A stretch of DNA of 64,000 nucleotides from Apostichopus japonicus (lineage: Eukaryota > Echinodermata > Holothuroidea > Aspidochirotida > Stichopodidae), in the NCBI RefSeq assembly GCF_037975245.1, contig NC_092583.1, forward strand, positions 7,515,264 to 7,579,263, written 5' to 3'. A model generated the notes under the pieces. The model ran no database searches. It saw nothing but the letters and a program-made list of their open reading frames with translations, and had not been told where the DNA came from. A program made the position numbers and the translations under genes. Positions 2,271-49,102 of the stretch are shown piece by piece (within the stretch, counting starts at the first letter, position 1; every line of letters begins with the position of its first letter).

Positions 2271-2274
2271 ACCC

Positions 2275-19566: not shown

Positions 19567-19586
19567 ATGGCCAGCACAAAAACCTC
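19567..19586 (+). CDS. Exon 1: start codon, MASTKTS
   Basis: ATG with A at -3 and G at +4; six codons plus two bases, then donor GTAAGT. The phase-2 end is exactly what exon 2 requires: its first base completes Ser7. That fit, in a gene otherwise lacking a start, is the reason for this choice. An upstream non-coding exon cannot be excluded. Confidence 0.65.
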
Positions 19587-22500
19587 GTAAGTATTTTTTA
19601 ATACAAGATTTAAATGTTTTTATAAATGACAGTATTTAAGAAAAGTATTATTTCTTTACTTTGCATTAATCTATGCACAAGCAATGTTATAAACTGACCT
19701 TTTTTTCATGAACAGATAAAAGACATTCTCATAAAGGCGGAGTGTATAGCCTAGTGGTTAACGCCGGCGTCTCCCAGTCATGAGATCCCCGGTTCGATTC
19801 CCCGCCGACAGCAATGTGTGTCGTCTGGCAAGGGTGTTGTTCAATAACAACTTCCTGACATGGACGTTAAATGAATGTGTGCCGAGAGATTGGCTTCGGT
19901 CAGCTTGCGAGTCTATAAGCCTCCATGGCTTCTTTCGCGAGTTCCTGCTTGCGGGAAGATCACATATACATACATACATACATACATACATAAAGAACTC
20001 CTGAAATGTGGGAAACAGTTCAATATCGAATAGGGGTGGGGCACAAAACTCCTAAGGGTAGTAAGACATCACTGCGTCGATTCTTTGGGGTGGTAAAGCA
20101 CAAAGCCATCTCAAATCGCCGATAAAATGGATCCTCTCTGCATTCTGTGCCACAAATTCCATTATTTTAATACGACAACGATGCAGCACCTATTGATTGA
20201 TTACTTTAATGTATTAGCAAAAGGACACTTCCTGTTTACATTTTTCCTAAATGTCTCAAAAAAGGACTTATTTTAAATACCGCCTAAAATTCAGTATGAA
20301 TTCACCCCGTGAAAACTTTAGACCAAGTTGGCTTTCTCTAATAGCGCCATCAATCATCATTAGCGGAGCCTTTTATCAAAGTTAGCTTTTTGGTATAGCG
20401 CCATCATTTACAACTTGTGAGCATGTGCCTCTTTCTCTCAGTTTTTGGCGCTAAATGCGAATGAATTAGAATGTACTGCATGCGTGTGGTCAACACACAG
20501 AAATAGTTGAATCAGAACGTTACATCAGTACATACATGTTATAACGATTAATATTGAAGATAAGTAAATCGTGTTCAAGCAAACTAAATATAGCCTACGC
20601 AATTTCATCAATTTTACTGAAACTGCATATTAACAAGGCTTATAGTCGGTGTTGTTATATATATGTAAGAGAAATTTTGTGAAAGGAATATTTAATATCC
20701 ACAGTAATCAATTGCAAATGTTTGTCTATTAAGAGGATACTTTAATAGGAAATTATTTTATTCGGTCGATTCTCCAATTTCTAGCACTTTTTTACTCCGC
20801 TCGCCATATATACATTCATGCGGACACGTATTTTCTTCACGTTTATGCGGGAGAGGGCTCTTAACTGGAAAATGCTATAATTGCTAGAAGTTTTCGAAAA
20901 GTACTTTCCTGCAGGTCTTTATTCTCCAAATTATTCTCAAACATTTTTTTTAAGAATACACAAGATGACTGAATGTCCCAATGAGGAATTTTTTTTCGAA
21001 GGTTGTAATAAAATCAGTTTAAAAAATTTGACCAAAGGTGACCATATTTAAATATCTAGCATATTTGGGGCCAATACAGCATAACAGGCTACAGGCTAGC
21101 TAGTATCCTAATAATTAGGTCTTGAACGTCTTATTTTTATATCTTCGAGATTTCCTTGCCGACTAATTTGATGGGAACATTTAGTGCTTTTGTGGTTCTC
21201 GACTTTGTAATTCCATGCATAAATCAACAGCTTTTCAAATAAATTAGTGCGGTTTTTAAGACCTAGGCTATATTTCGCAGGCTGAGAGCTGTTCATCATC
21301 ATCATTCCTTCGATCTAAAAATCAACTCTAAATTCTTCGTTACCACGGATACAACCTTCCAACCCTGACCTAACTTTTCACTTTTTGCCTTCCACACACA
21401 CAGAGTGCATACAACGATACCACGATTCACTGTGCAAGATGGTTACGAGGTGCTCGTCATGGACGTGCTAGATACAGGCCGTTTGGCTGTCGCTGGATAT
21501 AATGACAAGACAGAATGCAGCTTTATAGATCTGTTTATGTTACAATTTGATCCTGATTCTCAAGAAAAACCGTCATTATTGACGTCAGAGCCGTATTATT
21601 CTGAGGAATTTACCGAGTTTGGTTCAGAATTGCGGTCTGTTTGTTTACTGGATGATCGTCTGTTTTTAACGTGTTGTAATGATACGATTGCATTGTACGA
21701 TAGTAGTAATGGCGGTCTGGTCAATCGAGGGAAGTTTAACGGTGAAGCCTACTGTATGACAACCAGAGATGGTTTAGTCTATGTCGGTTTAACATCCAGT
21801 GAGGTGATTGTCTTAGATGCGAGAGAATTGAGAATAAAGAAGACAATCACCTTAACAGGATTAGAAGATAGAGACTATCCCTGGGAGATAACAGTTAGTA
21901 ATAATAAACTGTTTATCTGTACAGGCAGGGACGATAGAGCTTTAATGTGTAATAGTGAGGGAGAAATAGAACAGGAATATACACACACACAGTACAGTGC
22001 TTGGAGTATAACAGTCAGTGAAGAGAACGGATTAATATTTATATTATGGGCTGGTGGTGAGGGTAGTCAAGTTGTTGTTTACTCTCTATCTGGAGGTCAT
22101 TCTTCCATCTCTGGGGGTCATATCTTGGCTTCTTTTAAAGGTCCTGGTAATTTCTTGGGAATCAGGATCAATAATAACATAAACAGATTGTTTTTGGTTA
22201 CTACAACTGGAGAAGTACATGAATATCACACAGTAAGTACTAATACAGGATATATAGGCCTATGGTAAAAATTAGGACTATTTATCACTTTTATTAAAGC
22301 AATCCTTTGATTGAAGCACAACAAATTGGGTGTCATTCTATGCGAACAAGTAAGGAGAAGACACTCTTACATGTTTTGAGATCTGCTTTGCAATATTTAA
22401 AGAAAAATAAGAACATTTTTTTCCTTGGGATTTGCTGATTCTGGTAAGGTTGTCATCGAAGTGTTTCTGTCAATGTTCATAAAAGTGAAATTTTTTTCCT

Positions 22501-25500: not shown

Positions 25501-28500
25501 AGAAGCCATGTTGTGGGCGGAGGTCAATGGTTGTTTAAGTTCACCAGGGGTCAGATTGTGAAACCATGTCTTACACAATCTTTCAACAAGGACTGATGTC
25601 ATATTTAGTATGTTGATGTATCTATCACATGGAGTACAAGAAGCTTGTTGTTGAGGTCAATGATCATTTCAGGACAGCCTGTGTCATTGTGAATTTATTG
25701 TTCGTCACATCGCACTGCTTTTCACTGTATTACTAATATCAAGTTTGTTGTACACCCTCACTATACATTACGTCAGATTAATGCAGAAAATAGCTGAATG
25801 TTACATCATTGAAACCACTATTCATTTTGCATTCTGGTTATTAATGTCACCAGGCCACACCATATACTAGTAAATTATGTCTAACAGGATTAAGTAACCC
25901 AGGAAACTTGGTTTAGCATTACAGTATAGTTGATAACTGCGAACAGTTTTCAATAATTACATGTTTCACATGCATTCTTTGTCATGAAGCTGTGTAAAGC
26001 TCATAGTGCGGTAGCTTCACATAAAGTTTAGTGTATACACCAATCTTAAAGAAGTCTTGACAGTGCACATGGACTTTGATTATTCAGGCATTTGTGCTGC
26101 AGCACATGTGGTTCAGCTGTACAACTTACAAGCATAAACCATATCTTCCAGCCTATATAGTGCTTCTAAGTAAGTTGTGTACTCCTTCAGTACATGTCTT
26201 CTGCAAGATTGTAGGCTTAAATAAATGAATCTGTAAGTAAAAACCTGTGTAAAATACAACACTGCCTCAATGGTTGACATAGTAATTAATATGTTAACTC
26301 ATGAAAAACAACACTGTTAATAATTAAGGAGAATGTAAGAGGTAAGAAGGGGGTAGGGAGAGGGTGATTTGTGTGTGTTTTAATGTTACTGACCACCTAC
26401 TGTACATTGCCCAGAGTAGAAGACAATTTAAGTAGTTCCATGTCCATGATTACATTCCCATGCAAACATGGGTCACAATGTACTGTACATGTAGCTTTAT
26501 TGGTTAAATTTAAAGAATAAAGTTTAGCCCAATCAAGAATAATTATAAGTTGGTGGCATCATTAAGGAAATCTACAACAATCTGACTGATACAGCTTCAT
26601 ATATAGAAGTATGTACCTGTACAACTTAACAATCAATCCATCCAATTGTCAGCTTATAATACTATTATTTTTTTCTAAAATAAATATTGTAGTTGAAGTA
26701 ACTCAGGTAAATCACAGTCACATTATCCACACCTTCATCATACTAAAAGAAATCCCTTCTAAGAATATGTGTTGCTGTCTCAATGCCTCAAACATCTATT
26801 TTGTTTCATAGTCTGCTTTCACCCGTATATTTATTTGATGTTTTTTTTTTCGATTTTGTTACAGAGTGACATCTTCTTTGACAGCCTCACATCATTGGAG
26901 TTATTGATTGAGAAAGATGACTGTCAGAAGCTACTTGACTACCTTGAAGTTCCAGCCAAGGAATCAAAGGACATTATTGAGAGTGATACACCCTTTTCAT
27001 CTCTAGTCCACCATCTCAGAGAGGCAGGGAAGGTTTATTTTGATGACATCAACTATTTAATGACAGCATGCTCTGACAAAGGACTGAGTAAATTGATGGC
27101 AGTATTGACCATCTACCAACAGGCTCAAGGTATGTTTATATTAGAGAGCTTCACAAGCTTAACATATTATGAATTGACAAACAGGCAAATGCATTGCCCA
27201 CACAAAGAATAGATGCAATTTTAGGTAATATACCATTATATTAGCTTAACTTAATTAACCCATTGATGATAGGAGAAGGACCATGCATCAATACCATTTG
27301 ATACAAATAATGTGATTAATAAATTGACAAGAAATTCAATAACTGCAATGGCATGTAAAGTACTTCGAGCCCGGAAAGAGAATCCAATTTGGATGTTCAG
27401 AAGTGTAATTATTCCACACTGCATGTTTCCTGCAAAGTCAAGGTCTTGTGTATTAGTCAAATCTTTGCATAAGTCTGTAACTTATTATGGGATATACTCA
27501 AAAGTTTGACTTGGGATATGTTCAGACAAGATTGGTAAACTTTTGAAATTTGTAATTTAATATCCTTGATACTGTATGTTGGAGGATCATTGAAGGGGCT
27601 TGACTTTGTTCAATTGCTCAGAAACTGGGCAAAATCAGCACCAAGGGAAGTGAAAGATTTGCAGTGTCACCTCAAATAACATGCTAAAGTTGGACCAAAA
27701 AGTGAGCTCACTAAATTTGGTGTAAGTTTGTCACAATATTTTCCTGGAAGTTGTACAGCATAGATAATTAAGATACATTGAACTGTGTTTATTTACATAA
27801 CTAAATTTCTTGTGTGGAAGACAATCTTTAACCATTTTTGCATGTTATATGTTTGTTTCAGATTCAAAGTTGACCAAAAAAGTACTAAAAGATCAACTAA
27901 AGGCATTAGAAGAAAAAAGGGAGGAACTCTCTCACAAACTAATTGAATCAAAAGACAAAAAACAGCAGCTCACCGGAAGACTAAAGACAACAGAGGAGGA
28001 AAGACAAAAATTGAAAGATACATTGAAGGCAACAGAGGGAGAAAGACAACAGCTGAAAGGAACATTAAAGACAACAGAGGAGGAAAGACAGCAATTGAAA
28101 GATGCATTGAAGGCAACAGAGGAGGAAAGACAGCAATTCAAAGATGCATTGAAGGCAACAGAGGAGGAAAGACAACAGCTGACTGGAAGACTAGAGACAA
28201 CAGAGGAGGAAAGACAACAATTGAAAGATGCATTGATGGCAACAGAGGAGGAAAGACAACAATACAAGGATGCATTGAGAGCAACAGAGGAGGAAAGACA
28301 ACAGCTGACTGGAAGACTAAATACAACAGAGGAGGAAAGACAGCAATTGAAAGATACATTGAGGGCAACAGAGGGAGAAAGGAAACAATTCAAAGATACA
28401 TTGAAGACAACAGAGGAGGAAAGACAACAATTCAAAGATGCATTGAAGGCAACAGAGGAGGAAAGACAACAGCTGACTGAAAGACTAAATATAACAGAGG

Positions 28501-31500
28501 AGGAAAGACAACAATTCTCCGATAGATTGAATACAACTGAGAACAAACTGAAGATATTGAAGGATGAGAAGGAAGAATTACTGCAGCAGCAGAAAGAGGT
28601 TAGACTTCACATAGCATATGATTATAGATATCTGATGACCAAGTTACCTAACTTGGGTCATGAGAAATGTATTTATTATCAACAAGATGACCATTCTGTT
28701 TGATCTGGTGGTGTTAAAGTGAATTTGTAGTTTACCAGTTTGCAAACACAACATGTATTTTCAGAAATTATGGAATGTTTATGATGTTCAACAGTAGAGG
28801 TCCAATGATGAACATATTATGATTGAACCTGAATGGAGTTATGTAGGTAACGAATAGGTATGTTTAACTTCAAGTTCGTAACATTTCTATTTGTTCATAA
28901 ATGGTATAATACTGAAAATAAGTACAAAATAATGTCGGAATGAAGGCAATATGTCATTAAAATTTACACTTTGGTAAAGATTGAAGATGGATGGTTTGTC
29001 TGAGATACTTTTTGAGATGGATATTTTGAGTAACTATTCTTAGCCCATTTCAAGCCATTAACAGGTGACATTCACGTCGAGGTGGTTAGGCCATTCGCTT
29101 AGCACAGTGCTGACTAGGTAGGATGTCATATCTCCGTATTTTGGAAATTAAATCAAAAACCTTTTTTTTCTTTCCGAGAAACTCCAGAGGTAATTTGGTA
29201 CATGTTATACAAAATGATACCTTAGAATCTTGTATAACAACGAAGCAAAAGGAAACGGGAAAATCACAACAATAATTGTTTCTGTCAAACTTTATTGCCG
29301 ATTTTGTATAAACGGGATATTTTCTCATTTTCAAATAATCGGAATCGTAATGATTATGAAAAAAATAATCGGTAATCGGTATTTTCTGTTATGCATAATC
29401 GGTTGAACACTAATTAAGATGAGTTGAGGTAAATCAAAACTTGTAAAAGATCAAGGAGTGGAACAATCAAGAAGTGGAAATTTGACAAAGATTCTTCTAC
29501 TGTAGGCACGAAACTTTTACATGACAAGTACAAGATCCCATTTGTATTTAAATCTTTAAGTTCTACACCTAGAATACAGGTCTCTCTTTACCCACTGTAG
29601 GTAAAAATATTTAATCCCTTTGTCTAAATGGCAGATCTTTCAGAGAATTACAGTTTATATGCAAAACTAAACAAAAGGAATTATATTAATATAATCAAAC
29701 GTTTGTGCTACAATAAGATAGGCCTACATTCATTTTTCTAGAACAGTTATTCCACAATTCCTGGCCGTTCCCTCTGAAAGAGATCCTAGTTCTCTGCACT
29801 AATTTACATTGAACAAGTGACTACTCTGAGCCAGTTAATAATATTGTAATAGACACACTCGGCCTCAAGTAAAGATCAAAACCTTATCAGTTCAGCCTGC
29901 CTGGTAATAAATGTGAATAAATTTGTCAGCTTGGTAAATATGTTCCCTTCAGACATGACATACTTTACTGCTAGTATATATATGCAAGTAATCACTGGGA
30001 GGTGCGTCCCTCGTGTCTCATTCACTGTGCTATTTACATTACAGGAGCTGGAAGAGGCTAAATCAAGTCTGAGGGCTACAAAAGATGAACTTGTGAAGTC
30101 TCAACTGGAATATGCCAAAGAATCCATGGCCTTACAAGAGGTCTTGAAACAGACTAGGGAAGCCTTGAATCAACAAGAATTGGTAAAGCCCTTTCACACT
30201 TTCCCAGATCGGGTGACAGTTTTGAACGATCCGTAGCGCAAGGCGATGATGAGTATCCAGGACGGGTTGATATGGGTCCAGTATGGTGTACTACGGCGTT
30301 GTTATGGGTTGATAAGGATTGTTACAGATAGATTCCCCGGTCTATCCCGTATATGAACAGAAAACTTAGGGTTCTACTACGGCGTTCTACAGGCTGTTTA
30401 TCCATGACGGGTTATTACAAAGCTGTCACAACAAGATCCAACCCATAGCAAGTTGTATCAGCCGTAGTGCATATGTACCAATACATGGCGCGATCCTTTT
30501 CCATATGTACCAATATGTACCTTTATCAGCACCAACAGATCATGTGATCATGGCTTACTAGGTCCACTACATAGGGTTGCTATATATTGTCTATGGGTCG
30601 TCTATGGGTTGCTTCAGGTCCTCTACATAGGGTTGCGGTTCCTTGCTTTAGCAAAAGGAACCTATGTAGTCAGGTTGGCGTGTGCGTGTATGTGTGTGGT
30701 ACCTTCTGATCATAAATGTCAATAGGTTGACCCTGTGTGACTTTTGTGTGTGAAGTTATAATGGGGTCAAAATTTTGGTCGGAGTTAGGATGGCTGTACA
30801 GACCTGTCGTGTTCATTTTTTGAATCAGAAGATCAAAGATTTTGATGCTCTATTTAGGTCTCACCGATCAAAAATGTCAATGGGTTGACCCCCGGGTGAC
30901 CTTTGTGTGTGCAGGTGTGCAAGTTTAAAGTTAATTTTTAGACATTTAATGCAATTAACTCTCAGTGCCAAGGTCTGACACGATTGATATTTTGGGACAA
31001 GTTGTGAATGGGGTGGTGGAACATTTTCAAACTTAACGGTCATGTGATCTAAGGTCACCAATGTTATCATATCTGTTGACCCGCTTGTAGGTGACCTTAT
31101 ATTTCTTACATTTTTGACGCCATTTTCAGATCTCAAAAGTGCCTTCCGATCAAAAATCCGATCACAATTTGTTATCACAAAAGTGTTGGCTATAGTGTTG
31201 GTTCCTTTATGGGTACATGTAGGACCACAATTACTTGGACTATTTGAACCCAATTTTGCTATGATAATATTATGTGAATTGTCATATACCCCTACGCAAG
31301 GAACCACAATGCCTTGGGCTCTTGTTTATCTGTGGGTTAGACTCATATTTTTGTAAAGCAAGTTCAATATTTGTCAACGTATCCGAAGGCCGGATCGGTA
31401 CGGGTTGCCACAGATAGCTACAGAACATCCCAATTCATGGTAGATCAGATCACGGATCATGTGCCTTATTTACCGTTCAGGCAAGACCGGGCTCGCAATC

Positions 31501-34500: not shown

Positions 34501-37500
34501 GAAATTAGCAATTCTATTTGGTCTACCACCGGCAGAAACTGATATGCTACGCCGGGTTTCTCTGATAGAGACACCAGGAATCACTCTGATTAACTTCATG
34601 AAAACACGAAACATCATCAACATGTACGATGTCACTAACCTACAAAAGGGTTTGGTTTATATTCAGCTAAACCAAACAAATGAAAACCTTTTAGCTCCAT
34701 ATCAGTCTAAAGTTGACCCGTTTCAGTTTGAAGAAAACCAATTACCAGAACTGCTTGACTGGCCAGGTAAGAACGAATGAAAGGATGCAATCAGAATACA
34801 TAAAACAAAAATAGTACAGTAATAATAAAAATAATAATAAAATAGTACTTATATAGCGCATTCATCAGCAAGGCTGTCGAAGCGCTTTACAGGAATTGAA
34901 ACAATTAATACACAGTAAACAAATAAAATACAGGAAACATTCAAAAGCAAATAGTACAAAAATATTGCCTATTAAGGTATATATCATAAAACTTATAAAA
35001 GGATAGAAAAATACATTAAAGCTACAAACAGTAGAAGCCACATTGAGTACAAGAAGCCTTTTTTTGTGGAGGTCAGAGGTCATTTAGGGTCACCAGGGGT
35101 CAAATTGTGAAAACTTGTAAATATGATATCTCAAGACGGGAAGTATGGGAAGACCTCATATTTAGTATGAAGGTGTATAACATAAAGCAAAAGAATGCTT
35201 TTGATTTTGGTGGAGGTCGAAGGTCATTTTGGGGACAACATGTCAAATTGTGAAAGCCTTCTAAACTTGATATTGCAAGAAAAAAACCTTGGACACATAT
35301 AATATTTGGTTTTTAGATGTACCATATCAAATTTAAGGAGCCTATTATTGCTTTTGGACAAGGTCAACAGTCATTTGAAGTCAACAAATGCCAAACATTT
35401 ACCTCACTCCCCTCTTACCTGTCTCTTTACACTAACAGGTATTCTTAAACATAATATCACAAGGGAAGCCTAGATAGATCGCATTTTTTGGGTATGTTAT
35501 TGTACCACATTGAGTACAAGAAGCCTAATGTTGTGGGCAGAGTAAGAGTTTAATGGTCGTTTGAGTTCACCAGGGGACAAATTGTGAAAACCATGCTTTA
35601 CACAATATTTCAACATGGACAGATGTCATATTTAGTATGTTGATGTACATTATTTATCACATTTAGTACAAGAAGCCTGTTGTTTAGGTCAATGGTCATT
35701 TCAGGACAGCCTGTGTCATTGCGAAGTTATTGTTGTTATATCACACTGCTTTTCACTCTACTCTTAATAGATCAAGTATGTTGTAGACCCTCACTTCGTA
35801 AACATGTCAGCTTCAGGAAGAAAACTGCTCATGTTACATCATCGAAACTACAATGCATTTTTGTATTCTGGTTTCTATATCAAAGCATTAGTTACTGGTG
35901 ATTGTATTTATATCATTCTATTTTTAGTTGAAAATGTCAAATTTGTACCTGATGATGGATCAACTCCATCACAAGCCTCTGATGAAAGAGAGGAAGATCC
36001 CGACCATAGTAAGGAGAGTTTGGTGGAGAGAACAGAGAGAGAAGAACTACCAAAACAAAGAAAAGATTCAACTGTACTTGGAATGAGGCACAATCACTCA
36101 TACATTGAACACAGGATAAAATGTGAAGGTGGAACTATTAGCGTCATGGGGGTACATCTCACTATTCCTGAAGACGCTTTATCCTATGAAGGTGTAATTT
36201 CTGTTAAAGTGATTTATGATCCTGACATGCACCTCCCTGGAAGTGCTCATAGAGGCAGAATGACACCCCTGATAAAACTAGAGCCAGAAGGACTCGCCCT
36301 CAACAAGCCAGCCCAGCTGATTATTCCTCACTCGGCTATTATCCCTGAACCAGATCGACATGATGTTATTATCTTCACTGGTCTGAAAGAAAATTTACAA
36401 GAAGGTAAAGATGGTGACCTAAGAGCACTTTAAATGCATTTGATGTAAGGAGAAGTAAATTGAGTTAAATTCTGAGAATCAGTACGGTAAATTATATCTA
36501 ATTTAATAAGCTCTTTTTGTCTTTACTGTATTTAAGATTACCAAGTTACTAATATTGAATATTTATATAATATTACTTATTATAGGTGAAATCACTTGGA
36601 ATGAAGAGAAATCTGTTGATTGGAAGCTAGAACCGGAGAAGATCAGTCTTGATATTAACATTCTGAGCTACGTCTTTGTTAATTTAGTCAGCCAAGAAAC
36701 AGAACAGAAGCATATATTTCGTATTGTTCCATTTATTGACGGGATACTGGATGCCAAAGATGATGTTTTAATAACTGTTTGTTTCTGTAAGGACAGTGAT
36801 GAAGAGTACAAGGTGAGGATAATCTCCTGTTACCATGGTGATATGTGTAACAGTTTGAGGTGAATTATGCTTTGTGCTGTGATCTGTAGGTCGGATACTG
36901 GGAATCTTGCTTACTTTCATGATTTGCATAACAAAATGTTATCATGTATTACTGGCAAATTATGAAGTGATTGGTTAAGGGTACATTTGTGTGACATATT
37001 TATTGATTCATTATGGGTTATCAAAAAGAAAACACTGTTGCATTTGAAATACCAAACATTTACTCTTAATTTGCAATCATGATTTAGAGGATCTGATAAA
37101 AACAAGCAACATTAATTGGTAATTTTATTCATTTAAGGCCTTAAGGGAACAGAAGCTGCTGTTACTTGCTATAGCAGTATTGATGAAGAATAGTGAAGCT
37201 GCACAACAAATTGCATAATTGACTCTGCTTTTTTTTTCAATTACTTATCCATGTTCTTATGTTTTAGTTGTTGTTAGAGGACCACCAGTCCAAACTGAGT
37301 CTAGGAAACTATACAACATTTCAAGTTACCCGGACATTGAATGACGGCAGAGATTATGCTTCTTACATTGATCTGATGATGTCATCGCCCGGTGATAGTT
37401 ACCATCTGACGAAGGAAGAATCAAGAAAGGTTTGTAATCACCAATGCTATTAAAATTTGTCTTCTAACATTACATGTAAGACTTGTAGTTAAGGATTGGT

Positions 37501-40500
37501 TACCTGAAGTGGATCAAAATGTTGTAGTGGTTAGAATGTGGTTAAAAATACCCAACAGTGACCATAATCTATGCAAACGTCTGGTGGGCAGTGTAACAGC
37601 AGAATCTTGTGAGGGATGGTATTTTCAGTTCATGAAGTAGGAAGTAAAGTTTGATCCTATATTCTTTCACATGGTTTGATAAAAAGCTTCACTCACCATG
37701 GCTGCACTTAGGTGATCATGAATGAGGTTGTCTTTAATTCACCTCCCTTTGTATTTTTAGTTAGTGTTCAGGTGCTGTGGCAAATTTACAGTTGCTGGGG
37801 TGGGTTGTTGATTAGGTGGCTGTCCTGTGAGCAGGAATGAGTGAGACAATTACATGCCTTCCCAGTAATTCTCTGAACACTTATCAAAAAAAAAAAGGAT
37901 TGATATAAGCCGGTATACATCTACAATGACAGGACCATCTATGGCTCAACTTTATTCCTGTAGGGTTTCTACCCCATTGGACAAAATTAACCTAAATATT
38001 TTGTTATGGAATTCTTTGATACAATTACCAGGTTTTCCTTAATTTGTTTCTATATATGTGTGGAATTGTTTCTTTGAGTACATATCAAGCATTCTCATCC
38101 TCATTATAATTGATCTTCAATATCTTTTATCCATTAGCATGTAGACATTGATCACCTCTGTGCTGCCAGTAGAGTCTCTCATCAGTTCAGACTTAAAAGA
38201 AACAACGATGGAAACACTGACATGGTTGATGTGAAGCTAAAAGTATCACAACACGAGAAGAACCAGACAGCCCTTATCCTCCAATCAAAGGTGAGTTATG
38301 TCTGCTAATTTTCTTCCAGCAGTGTTTGTGTTCTCATATGACTCTTCATTACATAATTCTCTCTTCTGATCATTCCTTTGCTTAGTAATGTCCTGTCTGC
38401 TGGAAGTCTTGCAACTGTTTTCAGGCTGACTGAATGATGTCAGTGCTGAGACTGAATTCTTAGTTATTTGTTGGCATGTTTGCAGTGAATTAGCTCAGTG
38501 GTTAACGCCGGTGCCTTTCAATCATAAGGTCCCGGTTTCGAGGCACTTCCAGATTAATGTATGTCGTCCAGTTACAGAGTTGTTGACAATTCATAATCAT
38601 GGATATTAAATAAGAATATAAGAGACTGACTTTGGTCAGCTTTCGGCTTTTATAAGCCAGTGATGGCTTCTGCGCGAGTTCCTGCTTGCAGGAGGATCTA
38701 AAATACATACTAAATGTTCTCTCATGGATCCTTTTCTTTGTAATATTCACTGTGGATGACAATTGAATTTAATTATAGTAGTCTGTTATTCTGTAATTAA
38801 TGAGTAACTCAAAATGCAGTGAATTGCTGAAAAAAAATGTACATATCACCTGTGTTTTATTCAATGCACTGGTCAACAGTTTTTGGAAACTTTGTTTTGT
38901 GGGTATCTTAGGTACAAATTAGATACTCCATAAATGATAGGTATGTTGTCATCAAGATTCCTTTCCTTGGGATTTCACTCATTTATTATGTGTTGTTCCA
39001 TGTTTGACGCAGCCCAATTTTTCTACATTACATTTCTTCTTTAATCCTATTCAGTCACAGGGGTGTGATAGATAGTGAACACTACTGTACGTCAAACATT
39101 CATACATGTAAAGTTTCATTGGTCATACATTTTGGGGTTTTTTTTTTCTTCAGGTGAAAAACATTCTCTTATCTCCAGAAAGCCAGGAAATTCTTTTTAG
39201 AGAACAAAATCCAGGTGAGTTTTCAAGTGGAATTTGAACAAATGGTTGTACTTAGTTTTAAAATCCACCCTGACCTGCTTCTAAGTGAAGTTGGAACAAA
39301 AAATGAATGCTCCTTATCTTAGATATGCACCAGGTAAGTGTGCATTAGTGGAGATGAAAAGGTAAGCATACATACAGAACATGGACCCAGGTGAGTGTCT
39401 AAGTAGAGGCGAAAATGTAATAGCATTTGGTTTTAGAAGTAGACACACCTAAGTGTCACTTATAACAACTAAGGTTATTGGGAAACATTTAATCAGCAAC
39501 TACTTTGTAGCTCAAAGCAACTTTTGAAAGTGAAACTGCATACAAGACTAGAATTTATGCACAAGACGAGTGCTAATAGTTGAAAAGTTGCACGAAAGTT
39601 TTGGACAATAAGCTTAACCAATTTATTATATGCACGCACCAACGTCCTCCATGCAGGTTGCATGCTTCTTGTGGGCAAGTTGTGTACTTACTTGTTTATG
39701 TTAGTTGTGAACATTGCTCATTGTTCAAACCTGGCACACAATTAGCCTGTGATTCATGCACTCTTAGTTATACATGCGAATCTAGTCTTTTCTCTCCTTT
39801 GAATGTAATGTGGATGTTGTTGTCCTCACTTTCAGACTTAGACAAATATGAAGAGTTGAGAGGAGAGATTGCAAAGCTTCTGGATAAACAACATTGTGAA
39901 CAGCTAGGCATGTTCTTTGGGCTCACACCAGCAGAAAAAGAAAAAATTCAGGAAGCAGCAAAATCTGGAGAGATACTGATGAAAATATTGGATGAAAGAG
40001 AGCTCATCATGTCAGATAGAATGATTGGACTGTATGGAGGATTGAAAGCTATTCACTTTAATAAGGTGGCAACAAAGGTGCTGAAATACATTGATACGTC
40101 ACAGAAGAAGAATGGAAAGGAAAAGGAAGGAGCGAAAGATGATAAGAAAATAGTATGTGCTTAGTAAAACATTGTTAAGACTTAACATGTTAAGCGTGAA
40201 GCAAAACAAAAGTCACTTTGAATGAAGTCAAAATCTTAGAAGTTTAGAAGGTCTAGTACAGACTGTACTTACTGATATGAAAAGTTTTCTTTTTGCTGTC
40301 GTGCAAGTCTGTCTGAAAATTCATCCTTCCACTAATTGTGACAGTTTCTGTTTACTTAAAGTTACGTGTATAGATATCAAACGTACAAGAAGTCTGTGAA
40401 GAAATTTACTTAGCCAAACCAAATGCAGTAATTTTCATAAAATAATGATAACAAATGTGAATTTTATAAACAATTTGTACTATTTCAACATTATTGTTCA

Positions 40501-43500
40501 GGGAAAAGTTCCAGAGAAACCAGTAGTCATTTCAAAGAGGGAACCACTATTGTCAGTTAACTTCAACATTTTGATAGAAGAGGGATACAAGAAACTGGAT
40601 GTCCAAAGAGCCTTGAAATTGTCTCATGGAAAACTGGACTTGGGAAGACGGCTATTGCTGCTTGCTAAGGAAGAGCATGGTAAAGTACCCATATATTCAG
40701 CTACATTGGTATTTCTTATTTATGTCTTCCTGATTTAATCAACCTCATGCAATCTTATATGACATTCTAGGACAACATTTCATGCCCTTGTCTATTTCAG
40801 TGTTCATGGAAGGAAAAGGATTTTGTTATTTATTTTTGTAGGAGTATTACGCACAAAATAGCTGAAAAAATAGAAATATAATCTAGATGCTGTAAATAAA
40901 CCTTGTAAATAAGTCTTGATACTGTTCATGAAAAATTCTCTTCTACATCTATTTCCATTTATCACATCAAATATGTCGTATGTTCACTGTTCCACCTTTC
41001 ATTATTGTAATTTCTACAAATAGCCAAAAGATTAAGGCAGATTTGTGTAAAAGAGGCTATTTTCATAATGTGAATTGAACAGTATATGCAATTAACACAT
41101 GTTTAATAAAAGTGGCAAAAATACTTACCTTTCACATAAAATATATTACTTTTCTCCTCCAGAGAGACTTCCTTTGTTCCCTGGGTCAAATCTTTATAAA
41201 GAACAATACTTTGATCAGCATGGAGGAGAGTTGGTTATCGCAGGTGTTAATCTCCTTATACCAGCTGGGGCACTACACACTGGAAGGATTGTTAGTCTGT
41301 GGGTTTCTACTGAACCTGCCATTAAAGGACCTTTCTCAAACAAGAATCTAAGGTTGACCCCCTTTGTGAAATTTGGTCCAGAAAGCCTTACCTTACACAA
41401 GCCTGTCACCTTGATTATTCCACACTGTGCTTTTACTACAACTAACCAGATGGGTATTGATGCGTACTCTGGTGTCTTACAAACAGGTCTGTGTTTTTTT
41501 TGCCGTGTGTTTTTCTACTCCAGTGAGCGTTATATATAGTCACTAACATTTGTATAATCAACATAAATATGTATATGAGCTTGTGTGTACCACGTCTTGA
41601 CTTGAAAACATGAGATGCCTAAAAGTGCATATTGGTTTTATTTGACACTGGGTGTTTGGTTCGATGTTAAATGAATACAAAAAACCCGTTATTCTGTAGA
41701 GGTCACAATCATTCAAAACAGGAAGTGTGAACTATTTAAATCTAGTGGGGTTTATAAAACAAATTTTTAAGTGCTTTGTGGTGCTCAAAAGGTCATTTGA
41801 GGTCAATATGTGTCAAAGCCTGAAAACCTTCCAAGCCTTCATAACTGCTAAAGTAAAGCTAGAATGAAAGTCACACTTGATATGTGAAACCACCTAAGTA
41901 CACAAACACAATAATGGGAAGAAAATCACTAAGCCTTCTGGCTCTGTGTAATGTAAAAGTCAATATCTCAAGAAGCTAGAGGTAAGGTCCAGACATATCA
42001 TCTCCATTTCAAGAAACCTTTTAGTTGAACTTTGAGAGCAAACATTTTAGGGAGAAATAAACAATATTTCCAGAGGGAAATAATACCCTTCAAGCTGTGT
42101 TAAACTTCAGGGTTTTATCAACTGACCATGCATCCATACATACAGTTAGAAGTATAATATTTTACTATTTTGATGTTCTATGTATGCAATGTTGCATATT
42201 CTACCACCAGACTGACCCTTTAAAGTCATCTATGGTATAGGTTAGGACTGGTGTTGTACCTCTCACCATGTTATAAAATTTACTAGAAAAATGTTTTAAA
42301 ATTTCCTTCAGATAAATCTGTCAAATGGAGCTTAGAAAGGAAACACCTCAGCTGCTCTATGAATAGTCAGCACCTTGCAGTTGGAGCTCAGAAACCCTGT
42401 CTCATTGGTCTTCATGTCTCTTTCGTACCTAAGATGAGGAAGCGTGTTTGTATTTTACCGATTATAAACAGAGTTTTTGATTCAGGGGATCAATTGACAA
42501 TCCATCTTTGGTTTCATAATGATGACACACTGGAACATAAAGTAAGTAGCAGATTTTGGTAGCTCAAGTGGTAATGCTTATTATCTCATGGATTCCAGTT
42601 GTCTGCCTTTCTGATTTATTTTTACTTTTATTTTTTATTATTGTCATCTTTAATGAGGGTAGTCTTGCTCAGTGCAAAAGCACTGCTTCTAGAGGAGCCC
42701 TCAATACAATGACAAATGGTTCATACACAGACATGTACAGGGTTGATACATTGTTAACCATAGCTAGTAGCGTTGGAAATGATAAAGTTCTAGCTTGGTG
42801 CAGACACATTTGTAAACACACCTTGTCCAGGTGTTCAAGATTAGACAAAGATTTATATTTCAGAACATAGGCTGTCAGACTATTAAAGGTCTTTGATAAT
42901 ACATCCTACCAGACACTCCATTATATAAGATATTTTTAACATCTCCCTTATTTATGAAACAATAGCCACCCAAAAGAGGGTCATACCAGGGAGTAGTTAT
43001 TGCTTCCTGATCTTACATAGAACAACAAAGCAGTGTGTGAATTGATGTTAATATTCAAATTTACATACATACTAATAATAAAATATTAAATTGTTTCTTT
43101 TTTAAATTAATAGAGTCTTATCAATGAAGAAATCTACCAGCAAAAGGGAACCATAATTCATGATCCTGTGTTTGTTCATCTCAAGTCTATGACTTCAACT
43201 TTACATGTTAGCACCAACTCCAGTACCTCACAGTGTAACCCACATCCTAGAAAAGTGGTTAGTAATATTTGTTAAATATTCTTATTTCTTTGTTGGCAAC
43301 ATGAAAAGAATGCAGCTAATTCCTGTTCCACGGGTAATTTGCATTTGTTGGAAGAAAAGCTATATGCATCTATTGAGTGGTATGCATATGGTGTAAGCAT
43401 ATGTTGTTATTGAAATAAACATCATCTTATTTTAAAGTTGTCTCCTTCTGACATTCCTATGATATTCAATTAATAAAAAGGGGTCAGATGGTCCCAGCTA

Positions 43501-46500: not shown

Positions 46501-49102
46501 TGATTCAATAAACTTTGATTAACCTTGAAAAAAACACATTCCTGTTATATTCTTTTGCACTAAATCGTACACCCATATTCACCAGTGTGAAGAGAAATTA
46601 ACAAGAAGTTCCTACATAAGATGTACATTTCACATATCCGAAAATACTTTTCAATTCATCACGAAGATAAGCTGATTGATGTCTAGGAACCTGATACATC
46701 ATAAACTATATGACCAAAAAGACCAACAGAGACTGACCCAAGATGAAGGATACCACATAAAAAACAAGTTCTTAAATATTCTATGACATTACTAAACCTT
46801 GCAACGCCGTTCTCTCGACAAACAGGAAATGGGCTCTAAAGGCAACACTCTCAGGATGAAGTGTAACCTGCATAGACTTTTCGTGGCAAAGTAGCTTAAA
46901 TGCAAGTTCTGTATTTGTTGTACCATGATTGATATTGATAATTGTAGAGACAGAGCAAAGATATGAAACTAGGAATTGAAATTAGAACTTCCAGTATTGA
47001 GATACTGCGTCATTGATGCTCTTGTTTATTATTTTTTTATTTTTTTGGTAGTACGAATAATCATTCTGTTCATAGCTTATAAGAGCTGAAAAGAATATTT
47101 TGTTGATAGTTTATAGCCTTGCCTGAAGCCCAACGCCTTGACTTTACAACATCCATCAATCTCAATATGCATAATTCCATTAGTTGGTCATAGAGTACTT
47201 CAGTGTACCATATATGTGTCCACTGGGGGTTATAGGTGCTGTCAAAGTAAAACACACAGCTATATTTACAAATTACTTTGCATTTTCCAATGTTTACACC
47301 TGGATAAAGACAGGTAGAAATTATTTCACTATGAAGAGGAATGCAGAAGAGCGGTTATTATGATTTTGTGTTTGGTGAGGGACCTGCCTTAAGGCAGATC
47401 ACCTTTAGAGAGAGAGAGAAAGACAGGCAGTTTAGGTTAATTCCCTTGCCCAAGGCCAGATCATAACGACCCAGTCGACCAGTACTGGGACCTGCATTCT
47501 TTAAATTGCAAGCCTGGTGCCAACAACTTGACCACCATGTTAAAGGCTCTCAAAAGGTTGATAAATGAATACTCATCACTTGATTTTTCTCTCTTCAAGG
47601 ATGTTGCTATGGAAACCCTATGGTTGAAGAACAGGCACAAGGTAGAATTCCGTCTTCAGAACAAAGGGATCAAAGATACTATAAACCTGGAAATAGAAGC
47701 AAGATATGGGATGTCAGTGAAGAATCTATTCCAGTTTAATATTCAGTTGCAGGTAACTTGATTTTGGTTTAAATTGACACAAAGAAAAATTTGAATACTT
47801 GGAGTTTAATGTTTCACTTTGGATTTATATAAGCTACTGAGACTTTTTATATTTACCTTTTCTTTATTTGTTTACCATTTTTACATTCTCTAATGAAGTC
47901 ATTTTTTTTACATCTATTGAAATTTCAACTTTGTTTGCCTAAATTATTGAACTGTCTTCCATAATACAAGTTTGAAATATGATACAATTTTCAACAAAGC
48001 AAATATCTTTATGACAAGCTGTCTTTATATCACAAATGTTATACGTACAAACTATCCTAAAAGTAATTACTAAATAGCATATCTTAATATTATCACTTAA
48101 ACCACATTTTGATACACACTGTCAATTGATAGAGATGAGATATTCACAAACTAATTTTCTAGGAGAATCATCAAGCTTTCCTCTTCCTTTTCTCTTCACA
48201 GATTGACAAATTACTACATATTGACCAAATCACATCTCCATTCCAGCTCGTCCTACCTGAATGTGAGTAATTAGTTACATGATTAAAATTTAATATCATG
48301 TTAATTAAATGTAGGCCTTTATATGTAAAGTGTTGATGTTTGCTTTACAATCCTTACATATGAGATGTGTACACCTTATCCTACTTTGCATAGAGGAGTC
48401 CAGGCTTTAGTTGCCATGTCAACTAGTGGACCAACTATCAGCTATTTGCTATACTCGATATTAAGGAAAATCAGTTCTGACACCAAAGCAACACACTTAA
48501 AGACTGAGTATATACACTGTATTGAAGTCTCAATGCAGTAAAAAATAAAAATTAATGAAATTCAACCACCTGTTTGAAAATATACATTCTGGAGTTATAT
48601 CAGATTTTAAATTTAGTCTCATTGAAAACTCTGAGCTTTTAAGGTTTATTTTGCCAGTGTGTGTAAGATACACATCACTGTTGTCTCACAATTCTGAATA
48701 TTGTTTGCATGAAACAGGTTCTGAGGAATTTACTGTATGTAGAGTAATGCATTTAACGTATTTGCAAGTTCCACCTCTTCTTTCAACATCACAGCCATCA
48801 TCAAATCTTTTGATCAGCTAAAGCAGAACTTATCAGAACATCTTGATGTAGACCAATCTACCCTGCTGGCAAATATTTTCCAACTTCCCGAGGAAGGAAT
48901 TACTGAAATCAAGAAGCACAAAACACCGGGAACTCTTTTATTAGAGAAGCTGACCAAAAATTCACTGATATCTCCCACAAACATCACAAAATTGGAAAAT
49001 GCCCTAACAGAACAAGGAAATGAAGAGTGTGCGAAACTTGTCAGAGATTTCAGATGGAAAAATCCTGTAGTTCAAGCAACAATGTGCCAAGAATAATGAC
49101 TG
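19567..49102 (+). CDS. Propeller / DED / coiled-coil / double ZU5-UPA scaffold, 20 exons
   Basis: Joined exons give 5,193 nt, 1,730 aa. All introns are GT..AG and every phase matches. Residues: 1-283 beta-propeller-like; about 289-368 DED1; 372-663 coiled coil; about 692-765 DED2; about 867-955 ZU5-1; 959-1159 UPA-like; about 1160-1250 DED3; about 1284-1320 UBA-like; about 1343-1425 ZU5-2; 1433-1628 UPA-like; 1629-1730 DED4. No signal peptide, membrane segment, caspase or kinase motif is visible, so a cytosolic scaffold is inferred. Known relatives of ZU5-UPA plus a death fold are PIDD1, UNC5/UNC5CL, ankyrins and the NLRP1/CARD8 FIIND; none has this order to my knowledge. The HFS self-cleavage motif of PIDD1 and FIIND is not seen at either ZU5-UPA junction. 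Death-fold calls rest on helix pattern and could be DD rather than DED. Apoptotic or immune function is inference. Confidence 0.85.
19730..19992 (+). repeat. tRNA-derived SINE family 2, copy 1 (intron 1)
   Basis: tRNA-like head with CCTAGTGGTTAACGCC and box B GGTTCGATTCC (19791-19801), a body including 'gcgagttcctgcttgcggga', and a (CATA)n tail. A second copy lies at about 38485-38712. Confidence 0.75.
20296..20460 (+). repeat. Repeat pair with 9.06 kb (intron 1)
   Basis: Same block as at 9055-9215, starting CCCGTGAAAACTTTAGACC. Confidence 0.65.
21404..22232 (+). CDS. Exon 2: beta-propeller-like domain
   Basis: 829 nt after acceptor CACACACAG, ending at GTAAGT (phase 0). It encodes repeated four-strand blades with hydrophobic alternation: LDDRLFLTCCNDTIALYD, RDGLVYVGLTSSEVIVLD, SNNKLFICTGRDDRALMC, NRLFLVTTTGEVHEY. 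At least five such units fit a WD40/NHL-type propeller, although canonical W-D dipeptides are missing. Propellers bind proteins, so this is probably the ligand-sensing or partner-binding end. The frame is open from before the acceptor, with GTG rather than ATG at 21405, so this is an internal exon. Confidence 0.85.
22500..23200 (+). repeat. ~210-bp tandem repeat, about 3 copies (intron 2)
   Basis: GATCAAAATGGTGGAAAA recurs at about 22600, 22811 and 23020, each followed by 'ggatgctt...ttgcaatattaaagc' and a T-rich stretch. The copies are roughly 85-90% alike by eye. Open frames in them are incidental. Confidence 0.8.
24300..25720 (+). repeat. ~145-bp tandem array with DR1 motifs (intron 2)
   Basis: CTTGTAAACACAATATCTC-type starts recur near 24383, 24528, 24672, 24821, 24966, 25111 and 25253. 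Each unit ends in 'ggtcatttggggtcaccaggggtca'. Four units carry the exact 13-mer AGGTCAAAGGTCA and two more differ by one base. The array begins after TTTGGTTTCGATGAATATC and a TG-rich tract. Confidence 0.85.
26865..27129 (+). CDS. Exon 3: DED-like domain 1
   Basis: 265 nt; acceptor TTGTTACAG, donor GTATGT, phase 0 in and 1 out. Encodes a six-helix-like pattern: LELLIEKDDCQKLLDYLEVP, then FSSLVHHLREAGKV, then INYLMTACSDKGLSKLMAVL. The 'hydrophobic-x3-L-x5-Y/L-x-D-D/N-I' segment resembles death-effector domains. DED versus DD cannot be settled by eye. Confidence 0.75.
27862..28598 (+). CDS. Exon 4: coiled coil of 14-residue repeats
   Basis: 737 nt, phase 1 in and 0 out (donor GTTAGA). After a Lys/Glu-rich lead come thirteen tandem units of the form TEEERQQLKDALKA, from about 27985 to 28545, encoded by a 42-bp DNA repeat. 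Fourteen residues are two heptads, so units can be gained or lost without breaking heptad register. Leu/Phe at regular positions supports a long parallel coiled coil, probably for oligomerisation. Confidence 0.9.
30045..30182 (+). CDS. Exon 5: coiled-coil continuation
   Basis: 138 nt, phase 0 both sides; acceptor CATTACAG, donor GTAAAG. ELEEAKSSLRATKDELVKSQ... continues the heptad pattern without the exact 14-residue repeat. Confidence 0.8.
30610..31340. repeat. Probable interspersed element in intron 5
   Basis: Left part has an inverted pair GGTTCCTT...AAGGAACC at about 30629-30661 followed by a TG-rich stretch. The right part ends 'cgcaaggaaccacaatgccttggg'. Such GGTTCCTT-bounded blocks look like a transposable element, but no transposase or target duplication is seen. 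Confidence 0.35.
31985..32515 (+). repeat. GGTCA-rich repeat in intron 5
   Basis: Diverged units of the 145-bp family, with one exact AGGTCAAAGGTCA at about 32340 and a diverged one at about 32090. Confidence 0.6.
32591..32675 (+). CDS. Exon 6: acidic linker
   Basis: 85 nt, phase 0 in and 1 out; acceptor TTATTTGCAG, donor GTAGGA. TSVTAEETLLEECETPDVSQ is a short disordered acidic linker between the coiled coil and DED2. Small exon, supported mainly by phase. Confidence 0.65.
34443..34766 (+). CDS. Exon 7: DED-like domain 2
   Basis: 324 nt, phase 1 on both sides; acceptor TTTACATTTCAG, donor GTAAGA. TLKLAILFGLPPAETDMLRR and TPGITLINFMKTRNIINMYD show the same layout as DED3 and DED4 (LFGL/FFGL/IFQL, then a Pro/Gly turn). 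A 109-residue segment whose last third is a linker to ZU5-1. A nearly identical orphan copy lies at 11394. Confidence 0.8.
34814..35033 (-). repeat. LINE/SINE 3'-tail fragment
   Basis: (AAT)n followed by 'cttatatagcgc...gaagcgctttacagg', like the 3' tail of the LINE at 10306-10390. Confidence 0.5.
35035..35880 (+). repeat. GGTCA-rich repeat, close copy of 25.2-25.8 kb (intron 7)
   Basis: Extended match from about 35200 to 35870 with about 25200-25850, including 'caaatgccaaacatttac' and 'cacactgcttttcactct'. It ends just before exon 8. The short open frame at 35.68-35.90 kb is inside it and is not coding. Confidence 0.75.
35928..36404 (+). CDS. Exon 8: acidic linker plus ZU5 domain 1
   Basis: 477 nt, phase 1 both sides; acceptor CTATTTTTAG, donor GTAAAG. 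The first 60 residues are a charged linker. Then comes a full ZU5 signature: CEGGTISVMGVHLTIPEDAL, then MTPLIKLEPEGLALNKPAQL and LIIPHSA, matching the family's GG...GV.L.IP.GAL...TP.....G..L.KP..L..PH pattern. Confidence 0.9.
36586..36812 (+). CDS. Exon 9: UPA-like part 1
   Basis: 227 nt, phase 1 in and 0 out. ISLDINILSYVFVNLVSQ is the strand where PIDD1 and FIIND carry HFS; neither His-Phe nor the nucleophilic Ser is aligned here, so self-cleavage is not expected. Ends DEEYK before GTGAGG. Paired with exon 16 (230 nt). Confidence 0.85.
37268..37429 (+). CDS. Exon 10: UPA-like part 2
   Basis: 162 nt, phase 0 both sides; acceptor TATGTTTTAG, donor GTTTGT (weaker than consensus). LLLEDHQSKLSLGNYTTFQV continues the beta-rich UPA segment. 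Paired with exon 17. Confidence 0.75.
38138..38290 (+). CDS. Exon 11: UPA-like part 3
   Basis: 153 nt, phase 0 both sides; acceptor TATCCATTAG, donor GTGAGT. HQFRLKRNN...MVDVKLKVSQ aligns with EFRLQNKGI...TINLEIEAR in exon 18, which has exactly the same length. Confidence 0.8.
38485..38712 (+). repeat. tRNA-derived SINE family 2, copy 2 (intron 11)
   Basis: Head AGCTCAGTGGTTAACGCC and the same body as the copy in intron 1 ('gcgagttcctgcttgcagga'), with a short ATAC tail. Box B is mutated. Confidence 0.7.
39154..39214 (+). CDS. Exon 12: short linker to DED3
   Basis: 61 nt, phase 0 in and 1 out; acceptor TTTTCTTCAG, donor GTGAGT. VKNILLSPESQEILFREQNP. Exon 19 has the same length and phases. 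Confidence 0.75.
39836..40152 (+). CDS. Exon 13: DED-like domain 3
   Basis: 317 nt, phase 1 in and 0 out; acceptor CACTTTCAG, donor GTATGT. IAKLLDKQHCEQLGMFFGLT, then GEILMKILDERELI and IHFNKVATKVLKYI give the helical layout of DED2 and DED4. A Lys-rich tail follows (KKNGKEKEGAKDDKK). Confidence 0.8.
40502..40679 (+). CDS. Exon 14: UBA-like segment between modules
   Basis: 178 nt, phase 0 in and 1 out; acceptor TTATTGTTCAG, donor GTAAAG. NFNILIEEGYKKLDVQRALKL and GKLDLGRRLLLLA follow the three-helix UBA pattern (hydrophobic-x2-x-GY/GF..., A-L, G-x-x-x-x-A/G-x-x-L-L). Ubiquitin binding would be a plausible role but rests on about 35 residues. Confidence 0.65.
41163..41486 (+). CDS. Exon 15: ZU5 domain 2
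   Basis: 324 nt, phase 1 both sides; acceptor TCTCCTCCAG, donor GTCTGT (weak). HGGELVIAGVNLLIPAGALH, then LTPFVKFGPESLTLHKPVTL and IIPHCAF are a textbook ZU5, closer to the family consensus than ZU5-1. Confidence 0.9.
42312..42541 (+). CDS. Exon 16: UPA-like, module 2 part 1
   Basis: 230 nt, phase 1 in and 0 out; acceptor TTCCTTCAG, donor GTAAGT. SVKWSLERKHLSC matches SVDWKLEPEKISL of exon 9. QHLAVGAQ replaces the HFS strand, again lacking the cleavage Ser. Confidence 0.85.
43114..43257 (+). CDS. Exon 17: UPA-like, module 2 part 2
   Basis: 144 nt, phase 0 both sides; acceptor AATTAATAG, donor GTTAGT. Ser/Thr-rich second half (TSTLHVSTNSSTSQC); less conserved than its partner exon 10. Confidence 0.7.
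43258..47599 (+). other. Intron 17 (4.3 kb)
   Basis: Longest intron of the second module. Contains the hAT-type element (44619-45778) and a CpG-richer unassigned stretch at 43.66-44.2 kb with an antisense open frame of 126 codons (43807-44187) that shows no recognised motif. No extra exon is needed by the phases. Confidence 0.6.
44619..45778. mobile_element. Non-autonomous hAT-type element, 8-bp TSD
   Basis: Ends TAGTGTTTTCACGGG (left) and, in reverse complement, TAGTGTTACACGGG (right). The direct repeat CTAGAACT sits immediately outside both ends (44611-44618 and 45779-45786), an 8-bp target duplication as hAT elements make. No transposase frame is inside. An internal array of about four diverged units containing GACTTAGTGTGGTGTTAGGC lies at about 44750-45200. 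Confidence 0.85.
47600..47752 (+). CDS. Exon 18: UPA-like, module 2 part 3
   Basis: 153 nt, phase 0 both sides; acceptor CTCTTCAAG, donor GTAACT. VEFRLQNKGI...NLEIEAR aligns with exon 11, the same length. Confidence 0.8.
48202..48262 (+). CDS. Exon 19: short linker to DED4
   Basis: 61 nt, phase 0 in and 1 out; acceptor TCTCTTCACAG, donor GTGAGT. IDKLLHIDQITSPFQLVLPE. Same length and phases as exon 12. Confidence 0.75.
48795..49102 (+). CDS. Exon 20: DED-like domain 4 and stop
   Basis: 308 nt after acceptor CATCACAG, ending TGA at 49100-49102. LDVDQSTLLANIFQLPEEGI, KTPGTLLLEKLTKNSLISP and KLENALTEQGNEECAKLV give the clearest death-effector-like pattern of the four. The C-terminus is only about 15 residues beyond the domain, so the fold caps the protein. 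Confidence 0.85.

Follow-up and report, generated by a model that had tools for sequence, protein, structure and literature searches.

A sea cucumber propeller gene with two ZU5 modules and DED-type death folds belongs to a family that resembles a germline repertoire of putative intracellular immune sensors

Results and discussion

The window, a stretch of 64,000 nucleotides from Apostichopus japonicus (contig NC_092583.1, positions 7,515,264 to 7,579,263), holds a 20-exon gene whose family looks like a large germline repertoire of putative intracellular immune sensors. In 23 paralogues sampled out of at least 52, one face of the encoded propeller is under diversifying selection and the exons for the second and fourth death folds (DED2 and DED4) are under purifying selection, a pattern that makes the variable face a likely candidate for a ligand surface. 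On balance, we favor the reading that the gene belongs to a family of soluble, germline-diversified intracellular sensors, whose ligands and immune role we infer. An earlier note on this DNA had described an unfamiliar scaffold; the gene does not stand alone but belongs to a group of about 50 close paralogues, and a sister clade carries NACHT.

Gene structure

Rebuilt from the sequence, 20 in-frame GT-AG exons with compatible phases throughout (19567-49096, plus strand) encode 1,727 residues in one open frame, starting at an ATG at 19567 and ending at a TAA at 49094-49096. The twenty exons joining in frame that had been proposed, with about 1,730 residues, were borne out; the stop had been placed at a TGA at 49102, 6 bases from the actual TAA at 49096. 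The features are as follows.

19567..19586, plus: exon 1, start codon and 6 codons; GT donor; upstream of 4/4 paralogues examined
21404..22232, plus: exon 2, six-bladed NHL-like beta-propeller with hypervariable top face, putative sensor; AlphaFold2 model, NHL Z, omega
26865..27129, plus: exon 3, fast-evolving DED-like death fold 1; alignment with the other three death folds
27862..28598, plus: exon 4, coiled coil built from 42-nt (14-residue) units in tandem; repeat family D1, period-14 self-identity 0.56
30045..30182, plus: exon 5, end of the coiled coil; splice sites, 93-96% identity in P1 and P7
32591..32675, plus: exon 6, linker; splice sites kept in P1, P7 and P2
34443..34766, plus: exon 7, strongly conserved DED-like death fold 2; copies, omega 0.28 and 0.44
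35928..36404, plus: exon 8, ZU5 domain 1; Pfam ZU5 34.7 bits
36586..36812, plus: exon 9, putative start of UPA 1; alignment with sister-clade exons, ILSY against xFSW in the sister
37268..37429, plus: exon 10, putative UPA 1; phase-matched to exon 17
38138..38290, plus: exon 11, putative UPA 1; length (153) and phase equal to exon 18
39154..39214, plus: exon 12, UPA-DED linker; length (61) and phase equal to exon 19
39836..40152, plus: exon 13, death fold 3 (DED); Pfam DED E 0.065, death-fold profile
40502..40679, plus: exon 14, UBA-like; profile match to CBL UBA, E 0.01
41163..41486, plus: exon 15, ZU5 domain 2; Pfam ZU5 49.1 bits
42312..42541, plus: exon 16, putative start of UPA 2, no F/S at the cleavage place; sister-exon alignment
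43114..43254, plus: exon 17, putative UPA 2; splice sites kept in P1, P7 and P2
47600..47752, plus: exon 18, putative UPA 2; splice sites kept in P1, P7 and P2
48202..48262, plus: exon 19, UPA-DED linker; splice sites kept in P1, P7 and P2
48795..49096, plus: exon 20, fourth death fold (DED), ending in the stop TAA; AlphaFold2 model, DED structures, omega
11399..11605, plus: partial exon-7 copy, outside the gene, upstream; 87% over 69 aa
9643..9717, plus: coiled-coil repeat fragment, outside the gene, upstream; 68-77% over 22-25 aa

Three paralogues (P1, P7 and P2) were fetched across the gene for comparison of exons and splice sites. P1 and P7 hold exons 2 to 20 in order, and in each of them 18 of the 19 exons have their acceptor and donor at the base and in the phase predicted, the exception being the coiled-coil exon, which is variable in length. 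P2 holds 18 of the 19 exons (identity 33-79% by exon; exon 5 not found), with a boundary off the predicted base in each of exons 2, 3, 4, 8, 13 and 14. By this comparison the exon series is more than chance, since P1 and P7 repeat it with the same splice phases and P2 repeats most of it. Exon 1 and its 5' flank are present upstream in all four paralogues examined. In 20/20 further genes both splice sites of exons 2 and 7 are kept, as is the acceptor of exon 20. Splice sites, phases and colinearity in the paralogues thus support the proposal that the locus is one gene. The hydropathy of the protein reaches a maximum of 1.35 over 19 residues; therefore, it has no obvious membrane span. Repeats with a GGTCAAAGGTCATTT-like core occur in two of the introns (24383-25237 and, by eye, about 35050-35260).

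Domain architecture

A single-sequence AlphaFold2 model of the propeller (pTM 0.78, pLDDT 73.9) has 24 strands arranged as six four-stranded blades, the NHL-type arrangement. Foldseek alone ranked WD40/G-beta structures first, whereas VIA-align, a re-examination of Foldseek's best 1000 chains, ranked NHL first: its top twelve rows are NHL domains (Z 22.2-24.6), the best Z among the 973 chains aligned. Full-length APAF1 also scores in VIA-align (Z 20.5). The Pfam NHL repeat motif gave no match to the propeller at E up to 1. The model and the NHL structural matches bear out the propeller of the earlier note, and the coiled coil that it described as repeat-built indeed consists of 42-nt units (family D1) with a period-14 self-identity of 0.56. 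For exon 14, a profile search returned the CBL UBA first (E 0.01), which supports the proposed UBA-like segment; Pfam UBA had no match for this exon.

Both ZU5 domains exceed the Pfam curated cut-off of 21 (34.7 and 49.1 bits), as the two modules proposed previously would lead one to expect, and the ZU5 of UNC5B is a profile match at E 1.5e-8. Position, length and alignment suggest a UPA after each ZU5; the Pfam SH3BP4 UPA matched one of six rows at E 0.11, in a scan in which the unrelated Spore_GerAC scored 0.029. Exons 8-13 and 15-20 follow the same phase series (1-1, 1-0, 0-0, 0-0, 0-1, then the DED exon), two exon lengths (153 and 61) are identical between the modules, and the two ZU5-UPA-DED modules align over their length at 23-25% identity. 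This agreement of phases, lengths and alignment points to one module being an internal duplication of the other.

Assignment of the death folds required profiles and a structure model. Pfam searches of single exons at E up to 1 gave no death-fold match for exons 3, 7 and 20, and the best of the exons was exon 13 (DED, E 0.065, 13.9 bits against a curated cut-off of 35.9). Among 13 death-fold rows, four matched Pfam DED at E up to 1, the best at E 0.0095. A profile of 13 rows from 4 genes (13 of 16 rows) had cFLIP DED2 chains as its first five PDB matches, with a whole-sequence E of 0.003 and a best-domain E of about 0.05. Five window exons went into the AlphaFold2 model of DED4, which shows seven helices at a pLDDT of 83.4; in Foldseek, the DEDs of PEA-15, caspase-8/cFLIP and FADD lead (prob 1.00, best E 0.056, none at 0.001). 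The structure model covers DED4, and DED1-3 are placed by alignment and weak mutual matches. Judged by profile and model, the death folds are of the DED type, an assignment that is weak by single sequence. The four death folds claimed earlier are supported, DED4 by the model and DED1-3 by alignment, with their type corrected to DED. A death fold is thus present after the putative UPA, as DED4 by model and profile and as DED3 by alignment alone. A Pfam DED search of the animal's own genome gave 52 matches, none of which by eye lies on loci of the window family, which indicates that this family is too divergent for the Pfam DED model. A dense cluster of DED exons, most of them above the Pfam cut-off, lies at C16:10.2-11.1 Mb, away from the window-family loci.

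The gene family and its sister clade

An exon-by-exon propeller search of the same genome gave 132 rows, which correspond to 116 places after 16 rows were dropped as second pieces of exons already listed. The window clade comprises at least 52 propeller exons (its own included) on four chromosomes. At 47 of these 52, an exon 7 lies no more than 40 kb and an exon 20 no more than 60 kb downstream, in this order and on the same strand; exon 7 or exon 20 on the opposite strand within 40 kb was found for none of the 52. This colinearity used 54 of 93 exon-7 rows and 55 of 73 exon-20 rows, the remainder being weak, partial or second pieces. Exon 7 is present in 52 full-length copies at 75% identity or above, the window's own included, and 44 of 54 own-genome rows for exon 16 span nearly the whole exon.

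The list of ZU5 matches covers 150 scored candidates out of 204 and misses the first ZU5 of the window gene itself. Among the matches in this list, 87 of the 116 propellers are followed by a ZU5 exon on their own strand no more than 35 kb downstream, 16 are preceded by one on that strand, and no propeller has a ZU5 exon on the opposite strand. Shuffles of position gave a mean of 5 and a maximum of 12 for the propeller-ZU5 pairing, and shuffles of strand a mean of 46 and a maximum of 59. At least 10 of the 116 propellers have two downstream ZU5 exons. A separate cluster of more than ten ZU5 exons, none with a matching propeller, lies at C12:19.4-20.0 Mb.

Several observations concern the surroundings of the gene. 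The exon-7 and coiled-coil fragments (11399-11605 and 9643-9717) lie 8-10 kb upstream of it, and partial exon-7 copies also occur upstream of three other chromosome-23 members; such remnants upstream of several members suggest that the duplication unit may carry one. The gene is also flanked by five pairs of repeats (2249-5089 and 58114-61466), each 150-300 nt long, with 85-98% similarity within a pair and about 56 kb between its members; they overlap minus-strand open frames and are possibly a mobile element or duplication edges.

A tree of 30 propellers splits into two clades at 100/100 support with the chromosome-11 rows on the window side, three rows being on long branches and of unsure placement. 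The sister clade, on chromosome 12, has exons in the order propeller-DED-DED-NACHT-ZU5-UPA-Death with an F/S autocleavage-like motif. Two of its members, P3 and P6, were read exon by exon and show a propeller, two DED-like exons, NACHT, ZU5 and a UPA-like exon. Their NACHT open frames span 586 and 629 residues (Pfam NACHT 68.8 bits in P6), and a Death domain follows further on in P6 (30.4 bits, in the part fetched) and in the chromosome-11 gene P4 (56.3 bits). These architectures of P3, P6 and P4 are read from separate exons, that of P3 as far as the UPA-like exon. The first DED-like stretch of P3 holds a stop in the aligned frame, and both DED-like exons of P6 match window exon 20 at E 2e-7 each.

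At least 34 of the 39 main-clade propellers and at least 2 of the 18 other chromosome-12 ones have a NACHT exon no more than 40 kb downstream; among the matches listed, the same is true of none of the 5 chromosome-11 and 1 of the 52 window-clade propellers, all of these counts being lower bounds as 106 of 487 NACHT candidates were scored. One NACHT exon within a window-type cluster, at C19:5244471, has a ZU5 downstream (C19:5252216), and it is probably the NACHT of that single window-clade propeller. The P6 NACHT exon has no match in the window, P1, P7, P2, P4 or P5, and open frames in the window reach just about 300 aa, with no NACHT found in the window gene. As the sister clade carries both NACHT and the F/S motif, the window gene is a NACHT-less relative of propeller-bearing NLRs.

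The two clades also differ at the cleavage place. According to an excerpt of PMC3210808, CARD8 and NLRP1 have SFS, PIDD has HFS and UNC5b has Leu at the Phe position. Of 17 segments from sister and related genes, 14 have x-F-S-W after the ZU5, with H or S as x in 6 of them and N, T or R as x in 8; the remaining 3 were unmatched to that exon. No HFS or SFS stands at the site in any of 8 window-clade modules (6 of the 8 aligned to sister exons), which read ILSY in module 1 and have no F/S in module 2; a lone HFS elsewhere is in exon 17 of P7 (module 2). Given a motif that is present there and degenerate or absent here, autocleavage is predicted for the sister clade but not for the protein of the window gene. 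Since the motif does not stand at the site, we reject autocleavage of the FIIND type for this gene.

Selection on the propeller face

In 23 close genes, the propeller exon has a pairwise omega of 0.85, against 0.28 in exon 7 and 0.36 in exon 20. Codon models in IQ-TREE for the same number of genes separate the propeller itself: omega is 2.45 on the top face (a set of 76 codons, comprising the D-A and B-C loops and the first half of strand A, the latter added after the variable sites were seen), 0.65 in the rest of the propeller and 0.52 in the bottom loops. Fixing omega of the top face at 1 costs 23.0 log units, and random 76-codon sets gave 0.61-1.73 (mean 1.09, n=30). By counting, the D-A loops have an omega of 1.96 and the B-C loops of 1.51. 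Cross-validation by blade gave 2.91 (1.76-4.84) and 1.63 (0.70-3.17), the second interval including 1. The codon omega of the conserved exons is 0.44 for DED2 and 0.39 for DED4.

The variable sites are residues -4 and -2 before strand A (the D-A loop and start of A) and sites just past strand B (the B-C loop), at equivalent positions across blades. Entropy correlates between blades at 0.46 over the six blades; no shifted set out of 5000 came up to this value. The pattern is faintest in blade 2, which has no variability at position -2. Propeller topology puts D-A and B-C loops on one face, and it is from this topology, not from model coordinates, that the sites are placed together. Among 25 sister-clade propellers (chromosome 12), about 40% identical to the window's, variability falls at the same positions: the two clades correlate with a Pearson coefficient of 0.63 (shift maximum 0.33) and a Spearman coefficient of 0.40, and 16 of the 25 most variable sites are common to both (2.5 expected). 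Sister-clade omega is 4.59 on the top face, 1.36 in the rest and 0.99 in the bottom loops, so the contrast between faces there is only one of degree.

A comparison of the window gene, P1 and P7 gave an omega of 1.33 for exon 3 (DED1), 0.87 for exon 13 (DED3), 0.80 for the propeller, 0.75 for exon 8 and 0.17-0.58 for the other tested exons (exon 4 left out). In these three genes DED1, DED3 and exon 8 are therefore not tightly conserved, unlike DED2 and DED4.

Comparison with known systems

The closest parallels are the fungal HNWD receptors and the amphioxus DED-TRADD-N-WD40 proteins. HNWD proteins form a family for non-self recognition whose propellers, in an excerpt of PMC12222747, have diversifying codons on a predicted interaction surface. 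As in HNWD (HET-D, HET-E; NACHT-WD40), insofar as that excerpt describes them, a few codon positions per repeat diversify on the propeller surface. The HNWD propellers described there are two modelled seven-bladed WD40 propellers of near-identical repeats under concerted evolution, C-terminal and joined to a HET effector. The window protein, likened to these by description alone, differs in having six divergent NHL-like blades at its N-terminus, together with DEDs and ZU5-UPA. The HET-NACHT-WD40 order is absent from the window gene, in which the propeller comes first, with no NACHT and no HET match in the exons scanned. In amphioxus, excerpts of PMC8195603 report a lineage-specific expansion of 13-129 DED-TRADD-N-WD40 proteins. 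These likewise join a DED to a variable propeller in an expanded family; compared by that description, which in its excerpted form gives no residue-level selection, they differ in a TRADD-N and a C-terminal WD40. Pfam scans of window-family rows, which may miss divergent examples, gave no TRADD-N.

Other relatives share single parts. Like NLRP1/CARD8 (FIIND) and PIDD1, the family has ZU5 and a putative UPA followed by a death fold, to which the sister clade adds NACHT and the F/S motif; unlike them, the window clade lacks NACHT and a clear F/S and has DEDs, a propeller and two modules. UNC5, a transmembrane netrin receptor, also has ZU5-UPA and a death fold without an F/S site, and differs from the window protein in its membrane span. 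TRIM-NHL proteins and APAF1 resemble the window protein in the propeller, the NHL fold being the best structural match and APAF1 also scoring; unlike in these proteins, the propeller is N-terminal, and no RING, B-box, CARD or NB-ARC was found in the exons scanned. NACHT-WD40 and NACHT-ZU5 proteins are listed for early-diverging animals in the portion of PMC12909245 available. The word propeller is absent from the available portions of a 2024 survey of metazoan NLRs (PMC11508797) and a 2026 review of immune diversification (PMC13428168), and our searches of open-licence PMC papers gave no description of the window architecture.

Proposed mechanism and alternatives

The order of sensor (propeller), oligomeriser (coiled coil) and death-fold tails had been suggested before, and it is supported here, with selection on the propeller face added to it. 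The variable face would bind a family of non-self or altered-self ligands, and the coiled coil of 14-residue repeats may then multimerise the ligand-bound protein, taking the place of the NACHT-driven assembly of the sister NLR clade. The two ZU5-UPA modules could hold the DEDs closed in the manner of UNC5 and open or release them upon binding; we favor such a closed module over cleavage of the FIIND type, since in the window clade the sister clade's F/S motif is either degenerate or missing. Released DEDs might seed a DED filament that recruits partners resembling caspase-8 or FADD.

The main rival is that the NACHT-less clade consists of decoys or inhibitors whose DEDs and ZU5-UPA cap or titrate the NACHT-bearing sisters, much as cFLIP caps or titrates caspase-8. 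The death-fold profile is nearest to cFLIP DED2, the F/S motif is degenerate in the window clade and the sister NACHT exon is unmatched in the window, P1, P7 and P2, all of which would suit such a role. However, the window clade has its own propeller face under diversifying selection, so it appears to bind varied ligands itself, and we regard a decoy function as unlikely. It is similarly doubtful that the repertoire serves self/non-self marking, as in allorecognition or the choice of gametes or symbionts, instead of pathogen defence. HNWD propellers, with a similar selection pattern, do mediate heterokaryon incompatibility in some fungi, according to excerpts of PMC12222747, but death-fold tails and NLR kinship suit defence at least equally.

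Relaxed constraint or drift, in place of selection for binding, is a highly improbable source of the propeller variability. The whole propeller exon averages an omega of 0.85, and stops occur in 2 of 52 exon rows and in a second piece of a third exon; nevertheless, the variability falls at the same blade positions, on one face and with omega above 1, in two clades, and on omega and this restriction to a face we reject pseudogenes or relaxed drift. Least probable of all is that the locus is two or more genes (a propeller gene and a downstream scaffold) or a decayed copy: its introns are long (4.6 kb after exon 2 and 4.3 kb before exon 18) and the evidence for one gene was gathered exon by exon, but exon 2 terminates in a donor and not in a stop in the window gene and 20/20 further genes, the order of exons 2, 7 and 20 holds at 47 of 52 loci with none on the opposite strand within 40 kb, and the frame is open with splice phases preserved in P1 and P7, so that splice sites and colinearity lead us to reject separate genes.

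Returning to a family of sensors as the preferred reading, we see an even prospect that it represents a new class of animal innate receptor. This class would comprise a germline repertoire of about 100 propeller loci, with the top face of the six-bladed NHL-type propeller serving as the variable surface that reads antigens. It would come in two sister forms: an NLR ending in a FIIND-like autocleavage tail, and a protein in which a coiled coil and duplicated ZU5-UPA-DED switches stand in for NACHT. Invertebrates, to our knowledge, have no antibodies, and how they gain broad specificity inside cells is an open question that this family could address. With its variable face mapped, its death-fold exons constant and a sister clade that carries NACHT, the family offers a direct test of the ligands of the face. 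It also lets one ask whether NACHT and autocleavage can be traded for a coiled coil plus a ZU5-UPA switch of the closed type. If the reading is true, it would be a further case, beside the fungal HNWD proteins, of a propeller face that evolves like a recognition site.
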